Below, piece after piece: positions 49,148-63,110 of a stretch of DNA of 64,000 bases. The DNA comes from Betaproteobacteria bacterium. GTDB lineage: Bacteria > Pseudomonadota > Gammaproteobacteria > Burkholderiales > JACQAP01. Every line of letters begins with the position of its first letter. The first letter of the stretch is position 1. Location: positions 1 to 64,000 of the forward strand of contig JACQAP010000008.1 in assembly GCA_016194905.1 (NCBI GenBank), given 5' to 3'. Below the pieces are notes generated by a model that worked only from the letters and a program-made list of their open reading frames with translations, ran no database searches and was not told the origin of the DNA. A program made the position numbers and the translations under genes.

Positions 49148-49945
49148 ATGAACCCTCGTCATTTCACGGCGCGTTTTTGCGCGACCCTGGTATTCACGTT
49201 TGCCTGCGCGGGAGCGTGGGCGGCCGACGGACAACTCAGTCTTTCCACCGGCTTCGATTACAGTTCGGGCGACTACGGCGGGTCGACGTCGACCGACATC
49301 CTGTCGATCCCCGTCATCGGAAAATACGAAACCGGGCCGTGGACCTACAAACTCACGGTTCCTTTTATCGAAGTGACCGGTCCGGGAAACGTCGTTCCCG
49401 GCGTCGGACGCGAGAACGCGGTCAAGGGCAAAAAAGGAGCGGCTGTCAGCGGCACATCGACCGAATCTGGCCTCGGCGACATTACCGGCGCGGTGACCTA
49501 TAACCTCTTCGCAGGGAGCGCGTCCGCGCCCGCCATCGATCTCACCGGCAAGATCAAGCTCGGTACCGCAGACCGCGATAAGGGGCTGGGCACCGGCGAG
49601 AACGACTATTCGGTGCAGGTTGACGCCTATCAAATCTTTGGTCGGGTCACCGGATTTGCCACGCTCGGTTACAGCATCCTGGGCAGTTCCAGCGCCATCC
49701 CGCTGGATAATGTTTTCTACGTGGCGATCGGTGCCGGTTACAAGTTCGATGACAGGCTCAGCGGCGGCTTGATGCTTGATCTGCGCCAGGCTGCTTCATC
49801 CACCAGTGGAGAGCGGCGGGAGCTGACCGGTTACGTCAACTACAAACTCGACAAGGACTGGAAAGTGCAGGGCTACCTGTTGCAGGGTTTTGCAGATGGC
49901 AGCCCGGACTTCGGATTTGGCGCGCTCGTGACGCGCATGTTCTGA
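49148..49945 (+). CDS. Predicted outer-membrane beta-barrel protein
   Basis: A 265-residue protein with a signal peptide (FTFACAGAWAADG, cleavage near residue 26). The mature part alternates polar and hydrophobic residues in amphipathic strands and ends in LVTRMF, with the C-terminal phenylalanine used in outer-membrane assembly. It resembles transporter-like proteins annotated with phenol-degradation meta-pathway genes, but that link is weak. Stand-alone. Confidence 0.72.
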   Translation: MNPRHFTARFCATLVFTFACAGAWAADGQLSLSTGFDYSSGDYGGSTSTDILSIPVIGKYETGPWTYKLTVPFIEVTGPGNVVPGVGRENAVKGKKGAAVSGTSTESGLGDITGAVTYNLFAGSASAPAIDLTGKIKLGTADRDKGLGTGENDYSVQVDAYQIFGRVTGFATLGYSILGSSSAIPLDNVFYVAIGAGYKFDDRLSGGLMLDLRQAASSTSGERRELTGYVNYKLDKDWKVQGYLLQGFADGSPDFGFGALVTRMF

Positions 49946-50010
49946 GCGCTTACCGGATGAATGCCGGTGCGGATCGTGCATTGTCCGGCTATACCGAACT
50001 CGAATGAAAA

Positions 50011-50034
50011 GGCCGGGTAGTTTCATGCCCGGCC
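50011..50034. terminator. Hairpin after the beta-barrel gene
   Basis: GGCCGGG / CCCGGCC with a 10-base loop. There is no T-run on the plus side and only four Ts on the minus side, so direction and function are uncertain. The remainder of 49946-50402 holds no gene I can support. Confidence 0.35.
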
Positions 50035-50402
50035 CGATGTTTCCCGGCAAATGTGAGGAAAAAGGATGACGGGAATCCTGCGTGGTCGCGATACTCACGC
50101 GCGCCAGGCACTCGCCCTGGTCGGCAGCGATGCCGTATTCTCGATCGCACGCCCGACTTTCAAGCTGTCTGCCTGACCAGAAGTCTTCCTCATTGCGAAC
50201 CTAGGCTGGCGCGCCGACCGAAGGCAGCGGCGACCAAGCTTCGTAACACTTTCGGTTTCGGAATCACGAAGCGGGAAATGATTTCGAACGTAAGCCGGCC
50301 GGCCAATCGCCCTTCGAAATCTGGTTGTGTTAAGCCGTACGTGGGCAGCGCCTGCTCTGAGAAAGACACGACGATCCATCGCCCGCCTTCGTAACCACCG
50401 GC

Positions 50403-50429
50403 AAAAAAAAGCCGGCAATCACGCCCGGC
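50403..50429 (-). terminator. Rho-independent terminator of small secreted protein copy B
   Basis: On the minus strand the stem GCCGG/CCGGC (50411-50429) is followed by eight Ts (A-run 50403-50410). It lies 28 bases after the stop of copy B, supporting that gene as expressed. Confidence 0.75.
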
Positions 50430-50456
50430 AAATAGTACTACGGGAGGAATTCTTGG

Positions 50457-50672
50457 TCAGTTGGACTCGGAGGAGGCCATGCGGATCGGGGCTTTCGGCA
50501 TCGGTGCGCAGTGGATCTTGTCGTCGATCATGACGCACTTGTCGTTGCCGTTGAGGCTGAAGTCGACGCGCTGCTTGCCGTTTTCCATGGACACGCGGAA
50601 ATTGTCTTCCGCGAAGGCGGTGGAGCTGGACAGGACGGCCGCGATCAGAAGGGCGCCGAGAATCTTGTTCAC
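50457..50672 (-). CDS. Small secreted protein family, copy B (intact)
   Basis: A 71-residue protein: a signal peptide (KILGALLIAAVLSSSTAFA) then a mature part of about 50 residues, EDNFRVSMENGKQRVDFSLN, GNDKCVMIDDKIHCAPMPKA and a short tail. Two cysteines eight residues apart (C-x8-C) could form a disulfide. The start is GTG at 50672 with GGAGGAA 7 bases upstream; a TTG at 50687 is unlikely. Related copies are at 44987-45199 (truncated), 62160-62207 (tail only) and 63815 onward (cut by the edge). Function unknown. Confidence 0.78.
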   Translation of the reverse strand: MNKILGALLIAAVLSSSTAFAEDNFRVSMENGKQRVDFSLNGNDKCVMIDDKIHCAPMPKAPIRMASSESN

Positions 50673-50970
50673 GATCTGTTCCTCCAAAAGCGTTTCGTGT
50701 TGGAGAAACTTTACGATTGAGGGGGGTGGCGGCGCGGTGAACTCTTGCCGCTGTTGCGTGTGATTTATTCACATCCTGGCGCCTTGCCGACTGTCGGTTC
50801 AGATAGTAGGGTGATCCAGTCGCCTGTCATGGCCTTGTCGGATCGGGAAGATTCCGGTTCTCCCGGGAGGCGTTTCCGGACCCGGCCTGTCTTGATCGAA
50901 AGCTGCAAAGGGGCCAGAGTTCCCTGACTTCAGCTCACAAAAGCGACAGACCGCCTCGGGAGGAGAGTCC

Positions 50971-51156
50971 ATGCGTGTGCGTCGGTGGGAAGAAAGATGG
51001 TCGATTGGTCGCCATGATCGTCGCGAAGTGCGGTTTCAATCGCTGATGAGGCGCGTGACGCAATCTGCGCTCACAGTCAATCTGAAGGTCGCGAAACCGC
51101 ATGGGATAAGGATCCCGCAGTCGATTCTGCTGCGTGCCGATGAGGTGATCCGATGA
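50971..51156 (+). CDS. Leader ORF with truncated binding-protein tail
   Basis: A 61-codon frame with GGGAGGAGAG just upstream of the ATG. The first 30 residues are arginine-rich and unrelated to anything I know. The last 30 (LTVNLKVAKPHGIRIPQSIL, then LRADEVIR) match the C-terminus of the TrpX-like binding proteins that follow. Its stop overlaps the start of the first binding-protein gene (ATGA). It may be the remnant of an upstream array member that now serves as the translational entry point. The 298 bases before it hold no recognised feature. Confidence 0.55.
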   Translation: MRVRRWEERWSIGRHDRREVRFQSLMRRVTQSALTVNLKVAKPHGIRIPQSILLRADEVIR

Positions 51157-52160
51157 ATCAACAGCATTCTCGTCGCGCCTTTACGTTCGCTCTTACCGTC
51201 CTGATCGCCTGCCTCGGCTTATTCGGACTCGCCAGTGCTGCCGATTCGCAGCAACCGATAGCGCCGCGGCGCATCGGGGTGCTCCTAGCGGCCTCGTTAC
51301 CCGAGGAAAAGGTGCCACAGGCATTCCGCCAGGGGCTGCTGGACGCGGGCTACGCCGAAGGGCGTGACGTGGTTATCGAGTGGCGATCCGCCAATGGCGA
51401 TTACAATCGGCTACCGCAGTTGGCCGCGGATCTGGTCCAGAGCAGAGTCGATGTAATTGTCGTGGGGAGTACGGCTGCAGCCCAGGTGGCCAAGCGTGCC
51501 ACGTCCACCATTCCCATCGTTTTGGCCATCGTCGCCGATCCAATTGCAAGGGGCTTGGTTGCAAGTTTCGCCCATCCTGACGGAAACATCACCGGGCTCT
51601 CGGCGATGACGGAAGACCTCAGCGCCAAGCGGCTGCAGCTGCTCAAGGAAGCTATTCCCCGAGTCGCTCGGGTGGCAGTCCTGTGGAATCCTGATGCGCC
51701 GTGGCACGCGAAGGTGATCGAGCAGCTTAAGGCAGCAGCGCCCTCGCTGTCGATCAAGTTGAATTTCGTGCCCGCGCGAACGCCCGAGGAGTTCGATGCG
51801 GCATTCTCCGCAATGAGACAAGCGCACGCCCAGGCGCTGTACGTGATCGAGGATGCCTTTTTCTTCGGCAATCGAATGACGCTTCTCAAGTTGGCGTCGA
51901 AGGCGCGGCTACCAATCATCTACTGGGTGAAGGAATTCGCCGAAGGAGGGGGATTGATGTCTTACGGGGCGAGCTACGGGGACCTGATGCGCCGATCGGC
52001 CGGATACGTCGACAAGATACTCAAGGGCGCGAAGCCCGGCGATTTGCCGATCGAACAGCCGACAAAATTCGAACTCGTCGTCAATCTGAAAACCGCCAAG
52101 GCGCTGGGTATCACGATCCCGCAGTCGATTCTGGTGCGTGCAGATGAGGTGATCCGGTGA
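51153..52160 (+). CDS. TrpX-like ABC substrate-binding protein 1
   Basis: A 335-residue periplasmic protein of the ABC_sub_bind (TrpX-like) family. The signal peptide ends at about residue 30 (GLFGLASAAD). Family marks are FRQGLLDAGYAEGRDVVIEW, VGSTAAAQVAKRATSTIPIV and LTIPQSILVRADEVIR-type end (ITIPQSILVRADEVIR). It overlaps the leader ORF at its start and the next binding protein at its end (GTGA). No permease or ATPase is in the operon. Confidence 0.9.
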   Translation: MNQQHSRRAFTFALTVLIACLGLFGLASAADSQQPIAPRRIGVLLAASLPEEKVPQAFRQGLLDAGYAEGRDVVIEWRSANGDYNRLPQLAADLVQSRVDVIVVGSTAAAQVAKRATSTIPIVLAIVADPIARGLVASFAHPDGNITGLSAMTEDLSAKRLQLLKEAIPRVARVAVLWNPDAPWHAKVIEQLKAAAPSLSIKLNFVPARTPEEFDAAFSAMRQAHAQALYVIEDAFFFGNRMTLLKLASKARLPIIYWVKEFAEGGGLMSYGASYGDLMRRSAGYVDKILKGAKPGDLPIEQPTKFELVVNLKTAKALGITIPQSILVRADEVIR

Positions 52161-53134
52161 TGCACCGTCTTGTAGTTCTCTCAATTGCCCTCGGCTTAAC
52201 TGCCATAGTGACCGTCGCGGGCGCACAGCAATCCAGCAACGTGCCGGTCGTGGGCGTTCTCAGAATTTCTTCCCCGGTCCGAAATGATCTGTCGATGGAG
52301 GCCTTGCGCAATGCGCTTCGCGAGTTAGGCTACTCAGAAGGCAAAAGCATTAAGATCGAACAGCGTTTTGCTCAAGGCCAGGCTGATCGGTTACCTGAGC
52401 TTGCCGACGAGATCGTCAGGCTGCACGTCGACGTCATCATCGCAACAAACGAAGCATCGGTACGTGCCGCGCAGCACGCGACCAGTACGATCCCAATTGT
52501 CATGGTTGCTTATGATCACGACCCTGTGGCATCGGGCATGGTTCAGAGCCTAAGCCACCCAGGTGGCAACATCACCGGAATTTTTTCCCGGCAAATCGAG
52601 CTGGCCGGAAAACGACTCGAGCTGCTGAAAGAGACGCTGCCAGGTGTGTTGCGCGTTGCCGTCTTTCATGATTCCTCCAACCGGCGTCCGATCGACGACC
52701 TTGAGGCGGCGGCCCGTTCCCTTGGTATCCGGCTACAGGTCGTCAACTTGCACCCGGACGAAGATCCTGCAAGCGCTTTCAAGACCGCCAGGAAGAAAGG
52801 AGCCGGCGCTGGAATCGTGCTGTTCTCCCCCGTGTTTTACGCAAAGCGTGTGCGTCTTGCGGAGGTCGCTGTCGAGGCAGGGCTGCCGACGATGTCGCAA
52901 GAACGCGATTTCGTGCAAGCGGGGTTCCTGATGTCCTATGCGCCCGACCGTGACGCGATTGTGTCGCGGGTGGCTTATTTTGTGGACCGGTTGCTGAAGG
53001 GCGCGAAGCCGAGTGACCTCCCCGTCGAGCAGGCCGACAAATTCAAATTGACGGTGAACTTGCGAACCGCAAAGGCGCTCGGCATCACCGTCCCGCAATC
53101 GATCCTGTTAAGTGCGGATGAGGTGATTAGATGA
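52157..53134 (+). CDS. TrpX-like ABC substrate-binding protein 2
   Basis: A 325-residue paralogue; the start is GTG at 52157 overlapping the previous stop, or the ATG at 52160. The signal peptide is short (LSIALGLTAIVTVAGA). It is divergent from protein 1 in the ligand cleft region (VAYDHDPVASGMVQSLSHPG), suggesting a different ligand. It ends ITVPQSILLSADEVIR. ATGA overlap with protein 3. Confidence 0.9.
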   Translation: MMHRLVVLSIALGLTAIVTVAGAQQSSNVPVVGVLRISSPVRNDLSMEALRNALRELGYSEGKSIKIEQRFAQGQADRLPELADEIVRLHVDVIIATNEASVRAAQHATSTIPIVMVAYDHDPVASGMVQSLSHPGGNITGIFSRQIELAGKRLELLKETLPGVLRVAVFHDSSNRRPIDDLEAAARSLGIRLQVVNLHPDEDPASAFKTARKKGAGAGIVLFSPVFYAKRVRLAEVAVEAGLPTMSQERDFVQAGFLMSYAPDRDAIVSRVAYFVDRLLKGAKPSDLPVEQADKFKLTVNLRTAKALGITVPQSILLSADEVIR

Positions 53135-54123
53135 GTTACTCGTCCCGAGTCCTCCTGATAGCGCTTACCGCTTTCCTGGCGTCGGGTTGGGTAGCCGAGG
53201 ACATCTATTCGCAGCAACCCAAAAGCCCACGGCACATTAGGGTCGTGGCAATCGCCATAAGCGAACAAAGCGATGAGGCAAAGGCGTTCCGCCAGGGACT
53301 GCGCGACGCCGGCTATGCTGAAGGGAAGGACATCTTGATCGAATGGTGGTTCGGCGGCGGCCGTTACGACCGTGCGCCTGAGGCGGTTGCCGACCTGGCC
53401 AAGCGTAAAGCAGATGTGATAGTCGTGGAAGGTACCCCGGCGGCGCTCGCAGCCAAGGGCGCAACAAGCACCATTCCCATTGTCATGGCACTGGTCGGCG
53501 ATCCAGTCGGGTCCGGTCTGGTTGCAAGCCTGGCGCGCCCGGGTGGCAACGTCACCGGGGTGACCAACCAGACCGTCGACCTCGCGGCCAAGCGCCTGCA
53601 ACTGCTCAAGGAAGCGATTCCCGGAGCGAGGCGCGTGGTTGTTATCTTCAATCCGGAAACACGTCCCAACAGCATAATGATCAGCCGTTTAAAGGAGGCG
53701 GCACCGGGAATAGGTGTCGAATTGAAGTTCATCAGCGTACGAAATGTAGAGGAGCTGCGTGCAGCGTTCGCGGGGTTAAGTCGCTCGAACGTGGACGCTC
53801 TGTTTATTGTCGACGACGGCTTTATGTTTACCCACGGAGAAGAGATTCTTCAAATGGGAATGAGTGCCCGGCTGCCGATTGTTTTTGCCAACAAACCCCT
53901 CGCAAGGAAGGGGGTGCTGCTTTCCTACGCAGTCGACCACCCCGCGCTGTTTCGGCGTGCCGCGGACTATGTGGACAAGATCTTCAGGGGAGCAAATCCA
54001 GCCGACCTTCCCATTGAGCAGCCGACCAAGTTCGAGTTGGTCGTCAACCTCAAAACCGCACGGGCACTCGGTCTCACGATCCCTCAATCGATTCTATTGC
54101 GAGCGGATGAGGTGATCCGGTGA
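53131..54123 (+). CDS. TrpX-like ABC substrate-binding protein 3
   Basis: A 330-residue paralogue close to protein 1 (RLQLLKEAIPGARRVVVIFN versus RLQLLKEAIPRVARVAVLWN). The signal peptide (RVLLIALTAFLASGWVAED) is somewhat atypical but hydrophobic. FRQGLRDAGYAEGKDILIEW and VALVGDPVGSGL-type motifs are present. It ends LTIPQSILLRADEVIR and overlaps protein 4 by GTGA. Confidence 0.9.
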   Translation: MSYSSRVLLIALTAFLASGWVAEDIYSQQPKSPRHIRVVAIAISEQSDEAKAFRQGLRDAGYAEGKDILIEWWFGGGRYDRAPEAVADLAKRKADVIVVEGTPAALAAKGATSTIPIVMALVGDPVGSGLVASLARPGGNVTGVTNQTVDLAAKRLQLLKEAIPGARRVVVIFNPETRPNSIMISRLKEAAPGIGVELKFISVRNVEELRAAFAGLSRSNVDALFIVDDGFMFTHGEEILQMGMSARLPIVFANKPLARKGVLLSYAVDHPALFRRAADYVDKIFRGANPADLPIEQPTKFELVVNLKTARALGLTIPQSILLRADEVIR

Positions 54124-55106
54124 GGATGGCGTCATTCCCTACACGCAAGTTTATGACTTGGGTCCTGACCGGCGTTGCGCTGCTATCGTCGATCGCCTTT
54201 GCTGATCAGCCCTCGACCATCCCTCGGATCGGAGTCCTCAATCCGCAAACGGCGAGCGCATCGATGGAAGACGCGCTACGGCACGGGCTCAACGAGCTCG
54301 GCTATGTCGAGGGCAAGAACATCAAAATCGAATGGCGGCGTGTTGCAGGCACGCAGGACGAAATGCGCTCGCTCGCAGCCGATCTGGTCAACTCGAATGT
54401 AGATCTGATTGTAGCGATGGGTTCACCGGCTACTCGCGCCGCGCTGGATGCGACGGCCAAACCGGTCGTGTTCCTCGCGGGGGATCCCGTCGCCAGCGGA
54501 TTCGCTTCGAGCCTGGCCAAGCCAGGCGGCAATGCGACGGGTGTGTCGGTCGTCTACACCGAACTGATCACGAAGCATCTGGAAATTCTGCATGAGCTTG
54601 TGCCCCGGGCGCGGCGAATCATCGTGCTCACCAATTTTTCCAACCCGGGTACGCCGCCATCACATAAAAAGCTGCAGCAGGCTGCCAAGACACTCGGCAT
54701 AAAACTGGTGAACTTGAGTGCCTCAAACGTAGCTGAAATGGATGTGGCGGTAAATGCCATTGAGCATACGCGGGCGGACGCGGTCCTTGTCGGCGGCGAT
54801 CTTCTCGCCCTGGCGAACAGAGATAAGATTGCTAAAGCCATCCACCATGCGAGATTGCCCGCGGTGTTTCCCTTCAAGCAGTACCACGAAGCCGGCGTGT
54901 TGATATCCTACGGGCCAAATTACGAGGCGGCGATGAGCCAGATCGCTACTTACGTCGACAGAATACTCAAGGGTGCGAAGCCATCCGACTTGCCGATCGA
55001 GCAAGTTTCCAGATACGAGTTGGTTGTGGATCTCCGGATCGCGCGCGAACTGGGGCTCACGGTCCCGCAGTCGATTCTTCTGAGGGCCGATGAGTTGATC
55101 CGATAG
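54120..55106 (+). CDS. TrpX-like ABC substrate-binding protein 4
   Basis: A 328-residue paralogue starting at GTG. The signal peptide is MTWVLTGVALLSSIAFADQ. With protein 5 it forms a subgroup: both have GYVEGKNI(K/L)IEWR, DAVLVGGDLLALANRDK versus EAILVGGDLLYLANKGK, and a KQYHEAGVLISYGP versus EDYHEHGALMSYGP segment. It ends LTVPQSILLRADELIR, the only member with TAG and an 8-base gap before the next gene. Confidence 0.9.
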   Translation: MRMASFPTRKFMTWVLTGVALLSSIAFADQPSTIPRIGVLNPQTASASMEDALRHGLNELGYVEGKNIKIEWRRVAGTQDEMRSLAADLVNSNVDLIVAMGSPATRAALDATAKPVVFLAGDPVASGFASSLAKPGGNATGVSVVYTELITKHLEILHELVPRARRIIVLTNFSNPGTPPSHKKLQQAAKTLGIKLVNLSASNVAEMDVAVNAIEHTRADAVLVGGDLLALANRDKIAKAIHHARLPAVFPFKQYHEAGVLISYGPNYEAAMSQIATYVDRILKGAKPSDLPIEQVSRYELVVDLRIARELGLTVPQSILLRADELIR

Positions 55107-55114
55107 GGCTGGCC

Positions 55115-56086
55115 ATGAGCCGACTATTCCTACTAGCTATTGGACTCGCGCTTTGGTTTGGTGCGGGAGTAATTGGCGCGGCACCGGCAGACCCTCCGCG
55201 CATTGGTTTCCTGACGCTGCTACCGGAGTCGGGGCCGGACCGAGAGGGTTTCCGCCAGGGACTCCGCGAGCTAGGGTACGTCGAGGGCAAAAACATCCTC
55301 ATCGAATGGCGGCAACATGGAGGTGCCGGTCAAGAGTTGCGCGCGTTGACGGAAGCGTTGGTCAACGCAAAAGTGGACGTCATCGTCGCATCCGGCACAA
55401 CGGCCGCCGACGCGGCGATGCGGGCTACTGCGACGATCCCTGTGGTGTTTGGAAGCGTTGGCGACCCTGTGGCGAGTGGCTTCGCGGCGAGCCTGGCGAG
55501 GCCCGGTCGAAACGGCACCGGCGTATCCATAGACTCCACAGAGTTGTACCCAAAGCGCTTGGAATTCCTGCACCAGCTTGCACCAAAAGCCAGACGGATC
55601 ACCTACCTCGTCAACTCATCCAACCCGATAGCGGCCAAGATGCTCGAAGAAACAGAGATCGCGGCACGCACGCTGAGTGTGCGGCTACAGACGCTCGATG
55701 CGCGCAACGCCGTTGAGCTAGGCGCCGTGCTGCAGACTCTGAGCAAAAATCCACCCGAGGCGATTTTGGTCGGCGGAGACCTGCTCTATCTCGCCAATAA
55801 GGGTAAGGTCGCCGCAGCAGTGCGCAAGGCTCGGGTCCCGGCGATTTTCGCTTACGAGGACTATCACGAGCACGGTGCGCTGATGTCCTACGGTCCGAGC
55901 GTGAGAGAAGCGGCGCGCCTTGCGGCCGGGTACATCGACAAGATCCTCAAAGGCGCGAAACCTTCCGAATTGCCCATCCAGCAGATCTCGAGGTTCGAAC
56001 TCATTATCGACCTGCGCCTGGCGCGCGAGCTGGGAATCGATGTGCCTCGCGAGCTATTGGCGCGTGCGGACAGGGTGATCAAGTGA
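55115..56086 (+). CDS. TrpX-like ABC substrate-binding protein 5
   Basis: A 323-residue paralogue with signal peptide LLAIGLALWFGAGVIGAAP. It resembles protein 4 most. The C-terminus has drifted (IDVPRELLARADRVIK). Its stop overlaps the GTG of the histidine kinase gene (GTGA at 56083-56086), so binding protein and kinase are translationally coupled, the strongest hint that this array is sensory. Confidence 0.9.
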   Translation: MSRLFLLAIGLALWFGAGVIGAAPADPPRIGFLTLLPESGPDREGFRQGLRELGYVEGKNILIEWRQHGGAGQELRALTEALVNAKVDVIVASGTTAADAAMRATATIPVVFGSVGDPVASGFAASLARPGRNGTGVSIDSTELYPKRLEFLHQLAPKARRITYLVNSSNPIAAKMLEETEIAARTLSVRLQTLDARNAVELGAVLQTLSKNPPEAILVGGDLLYLANKGKVAAAVRKARVPAIFAYEDYHEHGALMSYGPSVREAARLAAGYIDKILKGAKPSELPIQQISRFELIIDLRLARELGIDVPRELLARADRVIK

Positions 56087-59000
56087 TCTGGCGCGGCAGC
56101 CTCTTCCTCAAGTACGCGTTACCCCTGGTGATTCTGGTGATCGGCGGGCTTGTCGTCAGCGGGCTGGTCGAAATTTACTTCTCATATCAGGAAAACAAGG
56201 TGGCGCTGGCGCGCATCCAGCACGAAAAAGCGGTCGCCGCGGCGCTGCGGATCGAGCAATTCGTCAAAGAGCTGGAGCACGACCTCTCCTGGATTGCGCA
56301 GATGCCCTGGGGACCACGCGGGGTTTCGCTCGATCAGCGGCGGCTCGATTCTCTGCGATTGCTGCGCCAGGTGCCGGCCATCACCGAAGTCAGCCACCTC
56401 GATCCGATAGGGCATGAACAATTGCGAGTGTCGAGACTGGCAATGGACGTCGTCGGCAGCAACGCCGATTTCTTCCGCGATCCCAAATTCCGGGAACCGA
56501 TGGCCCACAAGACGTACTTCAGCCCGGTCTATTTCCGCAAAGAGTCCGAACCTTACATGACCATCGCAATGGCGGGTTCAGGCGAGGACGCGGGCGTCGT
56601 GGCGGCGGAGGCAAACCTGAAGTTCATCTGGGACGTGGTGTCGAATCTGAGAGTCGGTAAGGGCGGGTATGCCTACGTCGTCGATTTCCAGGAACGCCTC
56701 ATCGCTCATCCGGACATCAGCCTGGTGCTCAAGAAGACCGAACTAGCGACGCTGCCACAGGTGCAGATCGCGCACGCCGCATCGGCCGCAAGGACAAGCG
56801 ATACGGTCGAAGCGATCGTGGGAAAGGACCGATCCGGGAGTGAGGTCCTGTCTGCTTATGCCGTCATTGCTCCGCTTAACTGGACCGTGTTCGTCGACTT
56901 GCCGATCGCCGAGGCGTTCGCGCCGCTCTATGCCTCGATCTGGCGGACCGTGGTGCTCGTATTCGTGGGCGTCGCGATTTCCCTTATCGCGAGCCTGTTC
57001 CTGGTGCGGCGAATGGTCGCGCCGATCCACGCGCTCCGCGCCGGTGCTGCCCGCATCGGCGCTGGATCGCTCGATCATCGGATCGCGGTAAAAAGCGGTG
57101 ACGAATTGCAGGCGTTGGGCGACGAGTTCAATCGCATGACCGAACGCCTCCAGGAGTCGTATGCGGGCCTGGAGCGAAAGGTTAAAGAGCGCACTCGCGA
57201 TCTGACCGAAGCGCTCGAGCAGCAGACCGCGACCAGCGAGATCCTGCAGGTGATCAGCAGCTCGCCGACTGACTTGAAGCCAGTATTGGACGCGGTTGCC
57301 GAAAGTGCGGGACACCTGTGTGACGGCGATACAGTCGCAATCCTGCGCGTTGACGGTGATGGACTTAAATTTGCTGCGGCGTGGGGCCCACTTCCTTCGC
57401 TTCCATCTTACGAGACCATACCGATCCGCCGCGATTTAATAAACGGCCGGGCAATTCTCGATCGAAAAGTTATCCATATTCCAGACTACCGGAGCGAGTC
57501 AGACGAAGAATTCGGGGGTGCCAAGGGTTACGCAGCGCGTTTGGGATTTCAAGCGGCGCTCGCGGCACCCATGCTTCGAGAAGACCTTGCTATTGGTGTA
57601 ATTCTCGTTGAGCGTGTCGAGGCCCGCGCGTTTTCAAACAAGCAAATCGAGATGCTCAAGACCTTCGCCGACCAAGCGGTCATCGCCATTGAGAACGTGC
57701 GGTTGTTCAAGGAGCTTGAAGAGCGCAATAAGGCGCTTACCGAATTGCTCGAGCAACAAACCGCAACCAGCGAGATTCTTCGCGTCATCAGCCAGTCCCA
57801 GCGCAATGTGCAGCCAGTGTTCGAGGCGATCGCGGCAAACGCTCAGAAGCTGTGCGAAGGTACTTTTAGCGGCGTGTGGACTTATGACGGGGAGCTGATT
57901 CACCTTGAATCCGCAGTGGGCTTTACCCCAGATGAGGCTGAGGCGATGCGGCAAACATTTCCCAGGCGACCGGGGCACGGGGGAACCAACGAACGCGCGA
58001 TCCTGACCGGAGCGGTCGTCTACCTCCCGGATGTCCTGGAAGATGCGGAATATGAGTTACAACACCTAGCTCGTGAAATCGGGTTCCGCAGCATGTTGTC
58101 TGTCCCGATGCTGAAAGATAGCAGGCCGATCGGAACGATCGGCGTCTCCGGTGCCGAACCGGGAATGTTCTCCCCAAGGCAGATCGCCATGCTGGAGACG
58201 TTTGCTGATCAGGCGGTGATTGCAATCGAGAACACGCGCCTGTTTAAGGAGCTCGAGGAGCGCAACAAGTCACTCACGGAAGCGCTGGAGCAGCAGACCG
58301 CAACGAGTGAAATCCTGCGGGTCATCAGCAGTTCGCCGACCGATCTGCAGCCAGTGCTGGACGCGGTAGTGGAGCGAGCTGCACGCCTGTGCTCGGCAAG
58401 GGATGCTGTGATCTTTCGAGTTGAAGGCGCGTCGCTGCGGGCAGTAAAGCAATACGGGTCTTTACCGCCGGTCCCGGGAGAGGGAGTGCTGCCGATCAGC
58501 CGCGAGTTCGTATCCGGGCGAGCTGTCTTGGATCGACAGACTATTCACGTGGCCGACATTCTGGCCGAGCCGGAAATCGAGTTCGCGGGCGGGCGAGAGA
58601 TCGCAATTCGTATGGGTTACCGAACGGTGATCGTCGCACCGATGATGCGTGAAGGCGAGCCGATCGGCGTTATCGGTGTGTGGCGCACCGAGGTACGTCC
58701 CTTTTCGGATACGCAGATCGCGCTCCTCCAGACCTTCGCCGATCAGGCGGTGATCGCCATTGAGAACGTGCGATTGTTTACCGAGTTGCAAGAGCGGCTG
58801 GAGCAGCAGACAGCTACCAGCGAGATTCTGCGGGTGATCAGCAGTTCGCCAACTGATTTACAACCGGTTCTGGACGCGGTGGCAGAGAGTGCGGCGCGGC
58901 TGTGCGATGCCAGTGAGGCCATGATCTTTCGTAGCGGGAGCGACGGGCTCCAAATGGCCACACAATACGGATCACTACCAACGATCCGCGCCGACGAGCG

Positions 59001-60579
59001 TATCCCGATCCGCCGTGACATGGTTGCCGGACGGGCCGTGATCGACCGCCACATCGTTCATGTGTCCGACCTCCTCGCAGAATCCGACGAAGAATTCGCC
59101 GGCTCAAAGGCCTATGCGGCCCGTTTGGGCCACCGAACCGTGCTCGCGGCACCGATGCTTCGGGAAGGGGAGTCCATCGGGGTAATCTACATTCGCCGTG
59201 TGGAAGTGCGACCATTCACGGACAGGCAAATCGAACTCCTCAAGACCTTCGCCGACCAGGCCGTGATCGCCATCGAGAACGTGCGGCTGTTCAAGGAGCT
59301 GCAGGCACGCACGGAGGAACTCGCGCATTCTGTCGAGCAGCTGCAAGCACTTGCCGAGGTCAGCCAGGCAATCAACTCGACACTCGATCTCCAAGAATTG
59401 CTGTCGGCAATCGTCATGCGAGCGGTGGAACTCTCATCGACGGACGGAGGCGCCATTTACGAATATGACCAGGCAAGTGGCGAGTTCCGGCCGCGGGCAA
59501 CGCACGGATTCCCTCAGGAGCTGGTCGAGATGCTGCTGGCCACGCCTTTGCGAATCGGTGAGGGCGCCACCGGACGGGCGGCAGCAACGCGTGCGCCGGT
59601 TCAGATCCCGGACGTACAAGCCGAGGGCGCATATTCCAGTCCGCTTCAGGAGGCGACCATTCGGGCAGGAGCGCGTGCAGTGCTGGCGGTGCCGTTGCTG
59701 CGCGAGGGGCGCGTTCTTGGCGGACTTGTCGTCTCACGAAACAGCGTTGGAGACTTTCCGCCCGATGTGGTCGACCTTCTGCAGACCTTCGCAGCACAGT
59801 CGACTCTCGCGATCCAGAACGCGCATCTGTTCCGCGAAATCGAACAGAAGAGCCACGAGCTGGAGGTCGCGAGCCAGCACAAGTCGCAATTCCTTGCCAA
59901 CATGAGCCACGAATTGCGCACGCCGCTCAACGCGATCCTCGGTTATACCGAACTGATCGTCGACGGGATCTACGGCAAGGTGCCGCAGAAGATACGCGAC
60001 GTCCAGGAGAGGGTGCAGAAGAGCGGGCGCCACCTGCTCGGCCTCATCAACGATGTGCTGGACCTGTCGAAGATCGAGGCCGGACAACTCGTGCTGGTGC
60101 TCAGCGACTACTCGTTCAACGACGTCGTGCAGACAGTCATCACTTCGGTCGAATCTCTTGCCGCCGAAAAAGGGCTGCGACTGACTGCAGACGTCGCGCC
60201 CGATCTTCCGGTAGGGCGGGCTGACGAGCGGCGCATCACGCAGGTTCTGCTGAATCTGGTCGGCAATGCAATCAAGTTCACGGACAAAGGAAAGGTCTTG
60301 GTGAGCGTAACGGTCGCCGACGGCAAATTCGTAGTTTCAGTCAAGGACACCGGTCCGGGAATTGCCGTGGCCGAGCAGGACAGGATTTTCGAGGAGTTTC
60401 GTCAGGTCGACAGCTCGTCGACACGCGCCAAGGGTGGCACCGGGCTGGGGCTCGCCATCGCCAAGCGCATCGTGGAGTTGCATCGCGGGCGGATCTGGGT
60501 CGAATCTGCCATCGGGAAAGGTTCGAACTTCTTCATTAGCATTCCGGTCAAGGCGGATCTACAGGGAGGCACCTCATGA
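56083..60579 (+). CDS. Cache-HAMP-(GAF)5 sensor histidine kinase
   Basis: A 1498-residue membrane sensor kinase. Order: helix 1 (about 9-30), periplasmic Cache-type sensor (about 35-285), helix 2 (about 291-312), HAMP (to about 365), a coiled linker, then five GAF domains (about 400-550, 578-728, 757-900, 928-1068, 1095-1240). The first four are preceded by LEQQTATSEIL linkers at 378, 556, 735 and 906. HisKA has phospho-acceptor H1276 in MSHELRTPLN; HATPase has NLVGNAIKFTDKG near 1388, DTGPGIA near 1422 and GGTGLGLAI near 1451. No receiver is fused. Its stop overlaps the response-regulator start (ATGA). Confidence 0.95.
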   Translation: MIWRGSLFLKYALPLVILVIGGLVVSGLVEIYFSYQENKVALARIQHEKAVAAALRIEQFVKELEHDLSWIAQMPWGPRGVSLDQRRLDSLRLLRQVPAITEVSHLDPIGHEQLRVSRLAMDVVGSNADFFRDPKFREPMAHKTYFSPVYFRKESEPYMTIAMAGSGEDAGVVAAEANLKFIWDVVSNLRVGKGGYAYVVDFQERLIAHPDISLVLKKTELATLPQVQIAHAASAARTSDTVEAIVGKDRSGSEVLSAYAVIAPLNWTVFVDLPIAEAFAPLYASIWRTVVLVFVGVAISLIASLFLVRRMVAPIHALRAGAARIGAGSLDHRIAVKSGDELQALGDEFNRMTERLQESYAGLERKVKERTRDLTEALEQQTATSEILQVISSSPTDLKPVLDAVAESAGHLCDGDTVAILRVDGDGLKFAAAWGPLPSLPSYETIPIRRDLINGRAILDRKVIHIPDYRSESDEEFGGAKGYAARLGFQAALAAPMLREDLAIGVILVERVEARAFSNKQIEMLKTFADQAVIAIENVRLFKELEERNKALTELLEQQTATSEILRVISQSQRNVQPVFEAIAANAQKLCEGTFSGVWTYDGELIHLESAVGFTPDEAEAMRQTFPRRPGHGGTNERAILTGAVVYLPDVLEDAEYELQHLAREIGFRSMLSVPMLKDSRPIGTIGVSGAEPGMFSPRQIAMLETFADQAVIAIENTRLFKELEERNKSLTEALEQQTATSEILRVISSSPTDLQPVLDAVVERAARLCSARDAVIFRVEGASLRAVKQYGSLPPVPGEGVLPISREFVSGRAVLDRQTIHVADILAEPEIEFAGGREIAIRMGYRTVIVAPMMREGEPIGVIGVWRTEVRPFSDTQIALLQTFADQAVIAIENVRLFTELQERLEQQTATSEILRVISSSPTDLQPVLDAVAESAARLCDASEAMIFRSGSDGLQMATQYGSLPTIRADERIPIRRDMVAGRAVIDRHIVHVSDLLAESDEEFAGSKAYAARLGHRTVLAAPMLREGESIGVIYIRRVEVRPFTDRQIELLKTFADQAVIAIENVRLFKELQARTEELAHSVEQLQALAEVSQAINSTLDLQELLSAIVMRAVELSSTDGGAIYEYDQASGEFRPRATHGFPQELVEMLLATPLRIGEGATGRAAATRAPVQIPDVQAEGAYSSPLQEATIRAGARAVLAVPLLREGRVLGGLVVSRNSVGDFPPDVVDLLQTFAAQSTLAIQNAHLFREIEQKSHELEVASQHKSQFLANMSHELRTPLNAILGYTELIVDGIYGKVPQKIRDVQERVQKSGRHLLGLINDVLDLSKIEAGQLVLVLSDYSFNDVVQTVITSVESLAAEKGLRLTADVAPDLPVGRADERRITQVLLNLVGNAIKFTDKGKVLVSVTVADGKFVVSVKDTGPGIAVAEQDRIFEEFRQVDSSSTRAKGGTGLGLAIAKRIVELHRGRIWVESAIGKGSNFFISIPVKADLQGGTS

Positions 60580-60944
60580 GCAAGCGGATACTGGTGGTCG
60601 AGGATCAGGAGGACAATCGGCAGATCGTGCGCGATCTGTTGACGGCCAAAGGATTCGAATTGTATGAGGCGGTCACCGGCGAAGAGGGGGTCGCGTTCGC
60701 CAAACGCGAGCGACCCGACCTTATCCTGATGGACATCCAGCTCCCGGGGATCGACGGTTATGAGGCTACGCGACGGATCAAGGCCGATCCCGAGCTGTGG
60801 CATATTCCCATCATTGTCGTTACGTCGTATGCACTGAGCGGGGACGATCAGAAGGCGTTCGCGGCGGGGTGCGACGGTTACGTGACCAAGCCGTTCAGCC
60901 CGCGGTTGCTTCTGGCCAAAATCCGCGAGTACTTGCCGAAATAG
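60576..60944 (+). CDS. CheY-like single-domain response regulator
   Basis: A 122-residue receiver domain without output. Acidic pocket E9/D10/D13, phospho-acceptor D53 in LILMDIQLPG, T83 in VVTSY and K105 in YVTKPFSP are all present. It overlaps the kinase gene by ATGA, so is its probable direct partner or a phosphorelay intermediate (DivK-like). The next regulator starts 6 bases later. Confidence 0.95.
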   Translation: MSKRILVVEDQEDNRQIVRDLLTAKGFELYEAVTGEEGVAFAKRERPDLILMDIQLPGIDGYEATRRIKADPELWHIPIIVVTSYALSGDDQKAFAAGCDGYVTKPFSPRLLLAKIREYLPK

Positions 60945-60950
60945 CTCGCC

Positions 60951-62066
60951 ATGCACGTGCCGCCGCGCATCCTCGTCGTCGACGACAACCAGGCCAACGT
61001 AGATATTCTGCGCGCTCGCCTCGCCGCGCAAGGGTACGACATCGTCACGGCGACGGACGGGGAGGAAGCACTCACGGCGGTGAGCAAGCACCTGCCGGAC
61101 CTCGTCCTGCTCGACGTCATGATGCCCAAGCTCGACGGCATCGAAGTCTGCCGCCGGCTGCGCGCCGATTCCACGCTACCTTTCATCCCGATCGTGCTGG
61201 TCACCGCAAAATCCGACTCGAAGGACGTGGTGGCGGCACTCGAAGCCGGCGGGGACGAGTACCTGACCAAGCCGGTGGATCACGCGGCATTGGGGGCTCG
61301 CGTCAAATCCATGCTGCGCATAAAGGCGCTCCAGGACACAGTTCACGAACAGGCGGCGCAACTTCAGGAATCCAATTGCACGCTCGAACAGCGAGTCGCG
61401 GGCCAGGTTTTCGAACTGGAGCGGCTCGGCCGGCTCAAGCGTTTCTTCTCGCCGCAACTCGCCGAGTTGATCCTGGCCGGCGGCGCCGAAGATCCGCTCA
61501 AAAGCCATCGCCGCGAGGTAACCGTCGTGTTCCTCGACCTGCGCGGCTTCACCGCTTTTGCGGAAACCAACGAGCCCGAAGAGATCATGGACGTGCTGCG
61601 CGAGTACCACGCGGCAATGGGGCAGGTGATCCTCGCCCACGAAGGCACGCTCGAGCGCTTCGCCGGCGACGGCATGATGGTGTTCTTCAACGACCCGGTT
61701 CCGGTGCCGGATCCCGCGGCGCGGGCAGTGCGGATGGTTCTGGAGATGCGCGAGCGGCTCGGCGACCTGACGGCGAAGTGGCGAAAACGTGGTTTCGATC
61801 TCGGTTTCGGCGCCGGCATCGCTCAGGGATTTGCGACCATCGGCGCGGTCGGATTCGAAGGAAGATGGGACTATGGCGCGATCGGAACGGTTACCAACCT
61901 CGCGGCACGCCTGTGCAGCGAAGCGAAACCCGGGCAGATCCTGATCTCGCAGAAAGCATCCACGGCAATCGAGGGCTTCGTCGAGTTGGAATCCGTCGGC
62001 GAACTCCAGCTCAAGGGTTTTCTGAAGCCGGTATCCGCATACAACGTGATCAGGCTCACTGTGTAG
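60951..62066 (+). CDS. Response regulator with class III nucleotide cyclase output
   Basis: A 371-residue protein. Receiver (residues 5-125): D11/D12, phospho-acceptor D55 in LVLLDVMMPK, K107 in YLTKPVD. A coiled linker (about 125-165) leads to an adenylate/guanylate cyclase domain: metal aspartates D196 in VFLDLRGFTAF and D240 in RFAGDGMMVFF, and WDYGAIGTVTNLAARLC as the catalytic asparagine/arginine region. It probably makes cAMP in response to the upstream kinase; nucleotide preference is not certain. It is the last gene of the coupled operon. Confidence 0.93.
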   Translation: MHVPPRILVVDDNQANVDILRARLAAQGYDIVTATDGEEALTAVSKHLPDLVLLDVMMPKLDGIEVCRRLRADSTLPFIPIVLVTAKSDSKDVVAALEAGGDEYLTKPVDHAALGARVKSMLRIKALQDTVHEQAAQLQESNCTLEQRVAGQVFELERLGRLKRFFSPQLAELILAGGAEDPLKSHRREVTVVFLDLRGFTAFAETNEPEEIMDVLREYHAAMGQVILAHEGTLERFAGDGMMVFFNDPVPVPDPAARAVRMVLEMRERLGDLTAKWRKRGFDLGFGAGIAQGFATIGAVGFEGRWDYGAIGTVTNLAARLCSEAKPGQILISQKASTAIEGFVELESVGELQLKGFLKPVSAYNVIRLTV

Positions 62067-62159
62067 GTCTCTGTCGGTGCACGGTCCGGCGAGTCACCGC
62101 ACTGCGCTCGGAAGTCCCGGCAGCGAGTCTTCGTCGATCCAGGATGTGAAGTGCTGAAC

Positions 62160-62207
62160 TCACTCGTTGGTGGAGGACGCCACGCGGATCGGGGTTTTCG
62201 GCATCGG
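62160..62207 (-). pseudogene. Small secreted protein family, tail fragment
   Basis: On the minus strand this reads PMPKTPIRVASSTNE and stop, matching the C-terminus of copy B (PMPKAPIRMASSESN). At 62208 the similarity ends abruptly and plus-strand LamG sequence begins, so this is a recombination junction. Confidence 0.65.
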
Positions 62208-62631
62208 CTTCAAGCTGTTCGATCCCAACGGCGCCTTCATGATTCGCTACGGGGCCACGGTGCTGCAGTTGAACCAGTGGGTGCACGTCGCCGGGGTGTA
62301 CGACGCGGCGGCGCAGACCATGGCGGTCTACCTCAATGGCGTGGCCGACAACGGCACGCTGCTCGGCACGGTGGCCGGCATGCAATTGAACTCGACGCTG
62401 GATCTGTTCATCGGACGGCGCGCCGACACGGCCGGGCAGTACAATTTCAACGGCACGATCGACGAGGTGCGCCTCTACAACCGCGCGCTGTCCCAGGCCG
62501 AGATCCAGGCCGACATGAACACGGGACTGGGGAGTACGTCGCCGGTGGCGCTCTACTTCATCCAGCCGGACCCATTGAACACCCCGCGGGTCATCACCAA
62601 GGAGGGGGGCTACGGGGTCGTGCCTGCATAA
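62208..62631 (+). pseudogene. LamG/concanavalin-like domain remnant
   Basis: The plus strand reads FKLFDPNGAFMIRYGATVLQ, then LNQWVHVAGVYDAAAQTMAV and TIDEVRLYNRALSQAEIQAD, the second half of a LamG_3/jellyroll carbohydrate-binding domain. The N-terminal half, signal peptide and start are missing; the only open start (TTG 62167) lies in the antisense of the small-protein tail. A strong terminator follows, so it is the 3' end of a once larger surface protein gene. Confidence 0.7.
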
Positions 62632-62651
62632 CTGTATAACGAAGCCCTCCA

Positions 62652-62677
62652 ACGCCCGCATTCCTGCGGGCGTTTTT
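62652..62677 (+). terminator. Rho-independent terminator
   Basis: A perfect 9-bp stem ACGCCCGCA / TGCGGGCGT with TTCC loop, followed by a run of five Ts. It ends the LamG remnant and perhaps read-through from the sensory operon. Confidence 0.85.
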
Positions 62678-62690
62678 GTCTCAGCCGCTC

Positions 62691-63110
62691 TCAGGCGCCG
62701 GCGATGATCGCCAGTGCTGCGGTTGCGGTGAGGATGCGGATGCGCCGATAGCTTTTGAGATCGAGCAGATGCGCATCTCCCGACACGATGAGATCGGCCT
62801 GGGCCGAGAGCGCACAGGCGATCACGTGCTCATCGTTGGGATCGGCGCTGCCGGTGCCTTCGATCATCGCGGCAGCCGTCAAATTCGCGATCGTCATGAA
62901 ACGGCCGATGCACCGATCGACCGAATCACCGTTGGCGGTGATGCGCTTGGCGAACTTCGCATAGGCGAGCGCCTCGCGTAACTCCATGGCGAGCACCGCG
63001 CTGGTATAGATATCAACCGTCCCGCTGATCGCCGCATCGAGCAGTCTGCGCGGCGGGCCGTTCCATAAAAGCCCCGAAATGACGATGTTGGTATCGAGGA
63101 CCAGGCGCAT
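62691..63110 (-). CDS. PIN-domain toxin (VapC-like)
   Basis: A 139-residue putative ribonuclease toxin of the PIN family. The first acidic site is D6 in LVLDTNIVISG; later acids lie in MELREAL, DPNDEHVIACA and VSGDAHLL. The ATG at 63110 overlaps the antitoxin stop (TGATG arrangement), the usual coupling of toxin-antitoxin pairs. The 13-base gap to the LamG terminator is empty. Confidence 0.88.
   Translation of the reverse strand: MRLVLDTNIVISGLLWNGPPRRLLDAAISGTVDIYTSAVLAMELREALAYAKFAKRITANGDSVDRCIGRFMTIANLTAAAMIEGTGSADPNDEHVIACALSAQADLIVSGDAHLLDLKSYRRIRILTATAALAIIAGA

Follow-up and report, generated by a model that had tools for sequence, protein, structure and literature searches.

A tandem array of PF04392 genes in which a conserved C-terminal motif doubles as a predicted ribosome-binding site for the next gene

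The Shine-Dalgarno (SD) sequence lies in the 3' end of the upstream gene in around or above 50% of overlapping pairs in 20 of the 24 prokaryote groups surveyed in PMC6728339, where it is also reported that removal of the SD substantially lowered re-initiation in four of five E. coli pairs. The coupling of termination to re-initiation at -4/-1 overlaps with an intragenic SD is among the subjects reviewed in PMC12548453. Gene packing with the SD in the preceding gene is a common bacterial arrangement.

The window analysed here is a stretch of 64,000 nucleotides from contig 8 of a 36-contig, 4.75-Mb assembly. Positions 51153-56086 are occupied by five PF04392 (ABC_sub_bind) genes in tandem, each scoring 143-193 bits against a Pfam cut-off of 25.9 (Table 1). 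The second has two candidate starts, GTG at 52157 or ATG at 52160. In passing the cut-off and in sharing the C-terminal tail A-D-x-V-I-x, the five are like other PF04392 (TrpX-like) solute-binding proteins. They are unlike the usual members in that the genes are tandem and overlapping and adjoin a histidine kinase, and a scan of 11 proteins at 49148-63110 gave no transporter permease or ATPase. Similarly, the gene pairs are like known termination-reinitiation pairs in being co-directional, with an ATGA or GTGA overlap and an SD in the upstream 3' end at the usual spacing, but are unlike typical coupled pairs in that the neighbours are paralogues and the same motif would supply successive sites. 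A promoter and terminator scan of 50500-51300 gave no terminator and a single promoter-like site, on the minus strand. No PF04392 match was found in three genomes of the same genus (G001-G003); this lineage may have gained the array recently, or the other same-genus genomes may have lost it.

Table 1. Coordinates of the array, its junctions and the genes that follow it (window positions).
Feature	Coordinates	Strand	Details
61-aa ORF	50971..51156	+	own upstream SD GGGAGGAG, predicted energy -11.0
Junction 0	51139..51152	+	GATGAGGTGATCCG, then ATGA overlap
ABC_sub_bind gene 1	51153..52160	+	335 aa, 192.9 bits
Junction 1	52143..52156	+	GATGAGGTGATCCG, then GTGATG
ABC_sub_bind gene 2	52157..53134	+	325 aa, 143 bits
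Junction 2	53117..53130	+	GATGAGGTGATTAG, then ATGA
ABC_sub_bind gene 3	53131..54123	+	330 aa, 174.4 bits
Junction 3	54106..54119	+	GATGAGGTGATCCG, then GTGA
ABC_sub_bind gene 4	54120..55106	+	328 aa, 161.8 bits; ends DELIR*, TAG
Junction 4	55089..55114	+	GATGAGTTGATCCGATAG + 8-nt gap; no overlap, weak site
ABC_sub_bind gene 5	55115..56086	+	323 aa, 166.2 bits; ends RADRVIK*
Junction 5	56069..56082	+	GACAGGGTGATCAA, then GTGA = kinase start
Sensor histidine kinase, dCache-HAMP-GAF(x5)-HisKA-HATPase	56083..60579	+	1498 aa
Response-regulator receiver	60576..60944	+	-4 overlap with kinase
Receiver + adenylate/guanylate cyclase domain protein	60951..62066	+	

From the ORF at 50971 through to the kinase there are six junctions, five of which have a 4-nt stop/start overlap; the exception is 55106/55115. 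At four of them (51139, 52143, 53117 and 54106) the tail reads GAT GAG GTG ATC/ATT CGN/AGA, and GAGG ends 7 nt before the ATG or GTG start. An earlier note on this DNA had described these four, with the GAGG core 7 bases before the start, and had claimed that the C-terminal motif and a well-placed SD share their bases. All four junctions are real, the spacing is as described at each, and the dual use of the bases is borne out at the overlapping genes, but the first of the supposed genes is a 61-codon ORF, probably a remnant, and the four are not the whole set, since there are two more junctions, at 55106 and 56086. At the former, GATGAGTTGATCCG ATAG is followed by an 8-nt gap and the ATG at 55115, and GAGTTG replaces the SD, so that the site is lost; at the latter, AGGGTGATC runs into the histidine kinase. 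The SD:anti-SD energies predicted for junctions 0-3 are all -12.2 kcal/mol, compared with -5.2 at 55115 and -10.3 at 56083. The anti-SD was assumed to be the common one, because the one pattern tried did not locate the 3' end of the 16S rRNA in the assembly. The exact 14-mer GATGAGGTGATCCG occurs three times in the 4.75-Mb assembly, all within the array, and allowing one mismatch brings the total to nine places; the reversed 14-mer has no occurrence. As a baseline for SD strength, a simple ORF caller gave only four overlaps elsewhere in the genome, which is too few to use. The junctions are of the ordinary kind, with a -4 overlap and the SD inside the upstream gene, for which translational coupling is predicted.

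The 61-aa ORF upstream of gene 1 is likely to be the remnant of a deleted family gene. Its last 33 or so residues align to the PF04392 C-terminus, although below the cut-off (12.8 bits against 25.9, E = 0.067), and its tail is identical to that of gene 1 at 42 of 45 nt. It may now be a leader for the first full gene, to which it would be coupled, and it suggests that the array can drop a gene body yet keep the coupled end.

Recombination between tails that leaves the coupling intact is a hypothetical consequence of the layout alone. The earlier note had expected it at the module ends, and the codons give no sign of it: at sites encoding the same residue, codon identity within this genome is 0.389 in the tails (0.376 expected) and 0.374 in the bodies (0.384 expected). 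No local homogenization of the tails was thus found in the array, and the only pointer to a recent tail exchange is the likeness of the presumed remnant to gene 1. In the last seven codons, identity in this genome is 0.537 against 0.418 expected. Recent gene conversion within genomes is not supported as the cause, because the excess is also seen between lineages (0.559 against 0.390 expected); in Bradyrhizobium, identity in these codons is 0.667 within genomes, little above the 0.625 between genomes.

For the comparison of tail codons, family loci were collected in two groups, one belonging to the same order and the other to the genus of a Bradyrhizobium locus. For many of the loci the search patterns were neutral to most synonymous codons, but fixed RAD-x-VI (with CGN for Arg) and omitted Lys at x. 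Family ORFs carrying the motif A-[DE]-x-[VIL]-[IVM]-x-stop were retained (167 of 221), and the final set was 197 motif-bearing tails, or 174 after an 80% redundancy filter. The tail A-D-x-V-I-x is common to the array, the same-order members and the Bradyrhizobium members. A tail was classed as coupled when it is followed, at a start position of -4 or -1, by another member of the family. This gave 24 coupled and 47 uncoupled tails from the same order and 91 uncoupled tails from Bradyrhizobium; genes overlapping in another frame (7 same order, 4 Bradyrhizobium) and one coupled Bradyrhizobium tail were placed outside the tests. By a hand count, 9 genomes contribute the 24 coupled tails, so the p-values below overstate the evidence.

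Independent overlapping arrays of the family occur in other genomes of the order, at L060 (G148), L162 (G387), L058 (G135), L146 (G325), L064 (G137) and L052 (G104), and their junctions are ATGA, GTGA or TTGA. Bradyrhizobium loci, for example L370 (G633:C1:6915000-6933000), have many copies per genome, mostly spaced apart or alone; these often stop with TAG or TAA yet carry GAGGTGATCGAA tails.

The array is very probably a PF04392 operon with ordinary 4-nt overlaps, in which the tail is a ready-made SD and the codons are not demonstrably tuned for arrays. By analogy with the known systems, a ribosome finishing one gene would halt beside the start of the next, and GAGGTG in the last codons would help that ribosome, or another 30S subunit, to start again. 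The C-terminal A-D-x-V-I-x is a family trait, and where x is Glu the usual codons of the family would already spell GAGGTG, so that a gene could become coupled to whatever comes next by gaining only an overlapping TGA/start.

The earlier note had gone further, proposing that the DEVIR codons are selected in array members as an extended SD, so that recombination at the ends can duplicate or delete modules with the coupling kept. We consider this improbable. The codons that make up the site are used about equally by array members and by stand-alone relatives, an outcome that the note itself had named as counting against its proposal: GAGGTG is present in 13/16 coupled tails, in 6/9 uncoupled tails of the same order (p = 0.63, with these nine being the only Glu-Val tails of that class) and in 51/72 uncoupled Bradyrhizobium tails (p = 0.54), and the motif Val is GTG in 19/23, 31/42 and 72/90 respectively, which is not significant. 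The Glu codon is GAG in 16/16 coupled tails, as selection would predict, and in 9/10 and 58/73 of the uncoupled ones (p = 0.063 against Bradyrhizobium). Extension of the SD through ATC is not supported, as ATC is less used when coupled (14/24, against 30/38 in the same order and 73/89 in Bradyrhizobium; p = 0.026 for the latter). Among the 174 non-redundant tails, no synonymous codon is significantly commoner when coupled. Predicted SDs are stronger in coupled than in uncoupled tails of the same order (p = 0.006), which counts in favour of selection, but there is no difference from uncoupled Bradyrhizobium tails (p = 0.39). Measured as z against a synonymous null, coupled SDs are again stronger than same-order uncoupled ones (p = 0.027), and the comparison with Bradyrhizobium also differs (p = 0.029), but the means point no single way (0.94 for coupled; 0.93 for Bradyrhizobium genes alone and 1.17 for those with a spaced family gene). 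Within the order, the difference in SD goes with a residue, Glu at -4 (16/24 coupled against 10/47 uncoupled, p = 0.0003), and is confounded by clade; the final Arg is likewise commoner in coupled tails of the order (9/24 against 5/47, p = 0.011). Selection on Glu at -4 for coupling is conceivable. Three further observations fit selected codons, namely the loss of the SD at the single non-overlapping junction in the window (55106), the coupled tail retained by the putative remnant, and the absence of an SD from the one other family member in the host genome, a stand-alone gene ending CAA GAG GTA GTT CGA TAG, although this last is one gene. Against it stand the tails of the window genome, with no excess codon identity. 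In TAA/TAG-stopped Bradyrhizobium genes, GAGGTGATC is found in 31/52 Glu-Val-Ile tails, though a TGA overlap is impossible there. Dual use of the tail does not by itself show that codons are selected for it.

Less probable still, and in our view very unlikely, is that the site arises by chance and codon preference, GC-rich usage making GAG GTG ATC the default. These are indeed common codons in this genome (GAG 0.48, GTG 0.45, ATC 0.77), and GAG and ATC in the tails are near host usage; it is for GTG only that the controls tell against chance. About 80% of tails, whether coupled or uncoupled, have GTG for the motif Val (third from the end), compared with 30-40% in gene bodies. In non-redundant genes the counts are 66/81 in Bradyrhizobium and 49/63 in the same order, compared with no more than 0.56 at each of the other Val columns tested in the same genes. 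A codon-pair effect of the following ATC is ruled out, given that Val before ATC in gene bodies is GTG at only 0.42-0.44. A gene-end effect is ruled out as well: Val in the last eight codons of neighbouring or sampled other genes is GTG at 0.35-0.49 (0.49 of 87 and 0.46 of 35, and in a second control 44/101 and 32/92).

When column-residue sets are ranked by codon bias, the motif Val comes 2nd of 278 and 3rd of 246 in the two lineages; among genes stopped by TAA or TAG it is 2nd of 274, and among coupled genes 1st of 205. The top of three of the four rankings is a Ser column; the AGY and TCN codons of Ser are more than one step apart. Selection for hidden stops was considered and rejected, since there is hardly any enrichment of GTA, with which an out-of-frame stop would also arise (5/81 in Bradyrhizobium, 7/63 in the order of the array). 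Nor is the GTG cleanly independent of the SD core: in uncoupled tails it is used 81/94 times after a codon ending in G and 22/38 times otherwise (p = 0.0009), a link that favours a GGTG element or shared descent. Between proteins of 60-75% identity the motif Val codon is kept in 0.87 of 53 pairs, against 0.55 for body Val, with the pairs being non-independent; at 75-90% identity there is no clear difference (0.67 of 12 against 0.59). The final Glu is GAA in 60/74 Bradyrhizobium tails, compared with 2/10 among 199 genes sampled from one genome and 1/5 among flanking genes; in the same order it is GAA in 19/38. Something, perhaps descent from a coupled ancestor or a present role before the stop, keeps GGTG here in genes without a coupled neighbour. 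It is possible, but rather doubtful, that the tail is held at the nucleotide level whatever gene comes next, in two proteobacterial lineages whose family genes are mostly uncoupled, with the motif Val kept as GTG in both and the last Glu kept as GAA in Bradyrhizobium. Arrays would then exploit a permanent SD-like element directly ahead of the stop codon, whose action would be on termination, recycling or re-initiation. Alternatively, and no less plausibly, the held tail may be the trace of a coupled ancestor.

The array is followed at 56083-62066 by genes for a histidine kinase with dCache, HAMP and five GAF domains, for a receiver and for a receiver-cyclase. Over its N-terminal 420 aa the kinase matches ORFs in family loci of at least 11 other genomes at 41-69% identity (Bradyrhizobium included, one match being partial and the genomes counted by hand). 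The loci were picked for holding PF04392, and hence this counts co-occurrence and is not a rate. In locus L062 the start of the kinase lies 102 nt beyond the last array gene, and in L068 9 nt beyond it. Stimulation of receptors by solute-binding proteins is known in general, as described in PMC9602780. The array and the genes after it may form a sensory operon without a transporter.

The array illustrates clearly how successive junctions between paralogues can draw their ribosome site from a conserved protein tail. The bias towards GTG in uncoupled genes across the family is a minor puzzle, and a testable one. The association of the array with the kinase may matter more than the tail: the recurrence of dCache-HAMP-GAF kinases beside these binding-protein genes suggests a sensory role for part of the family.
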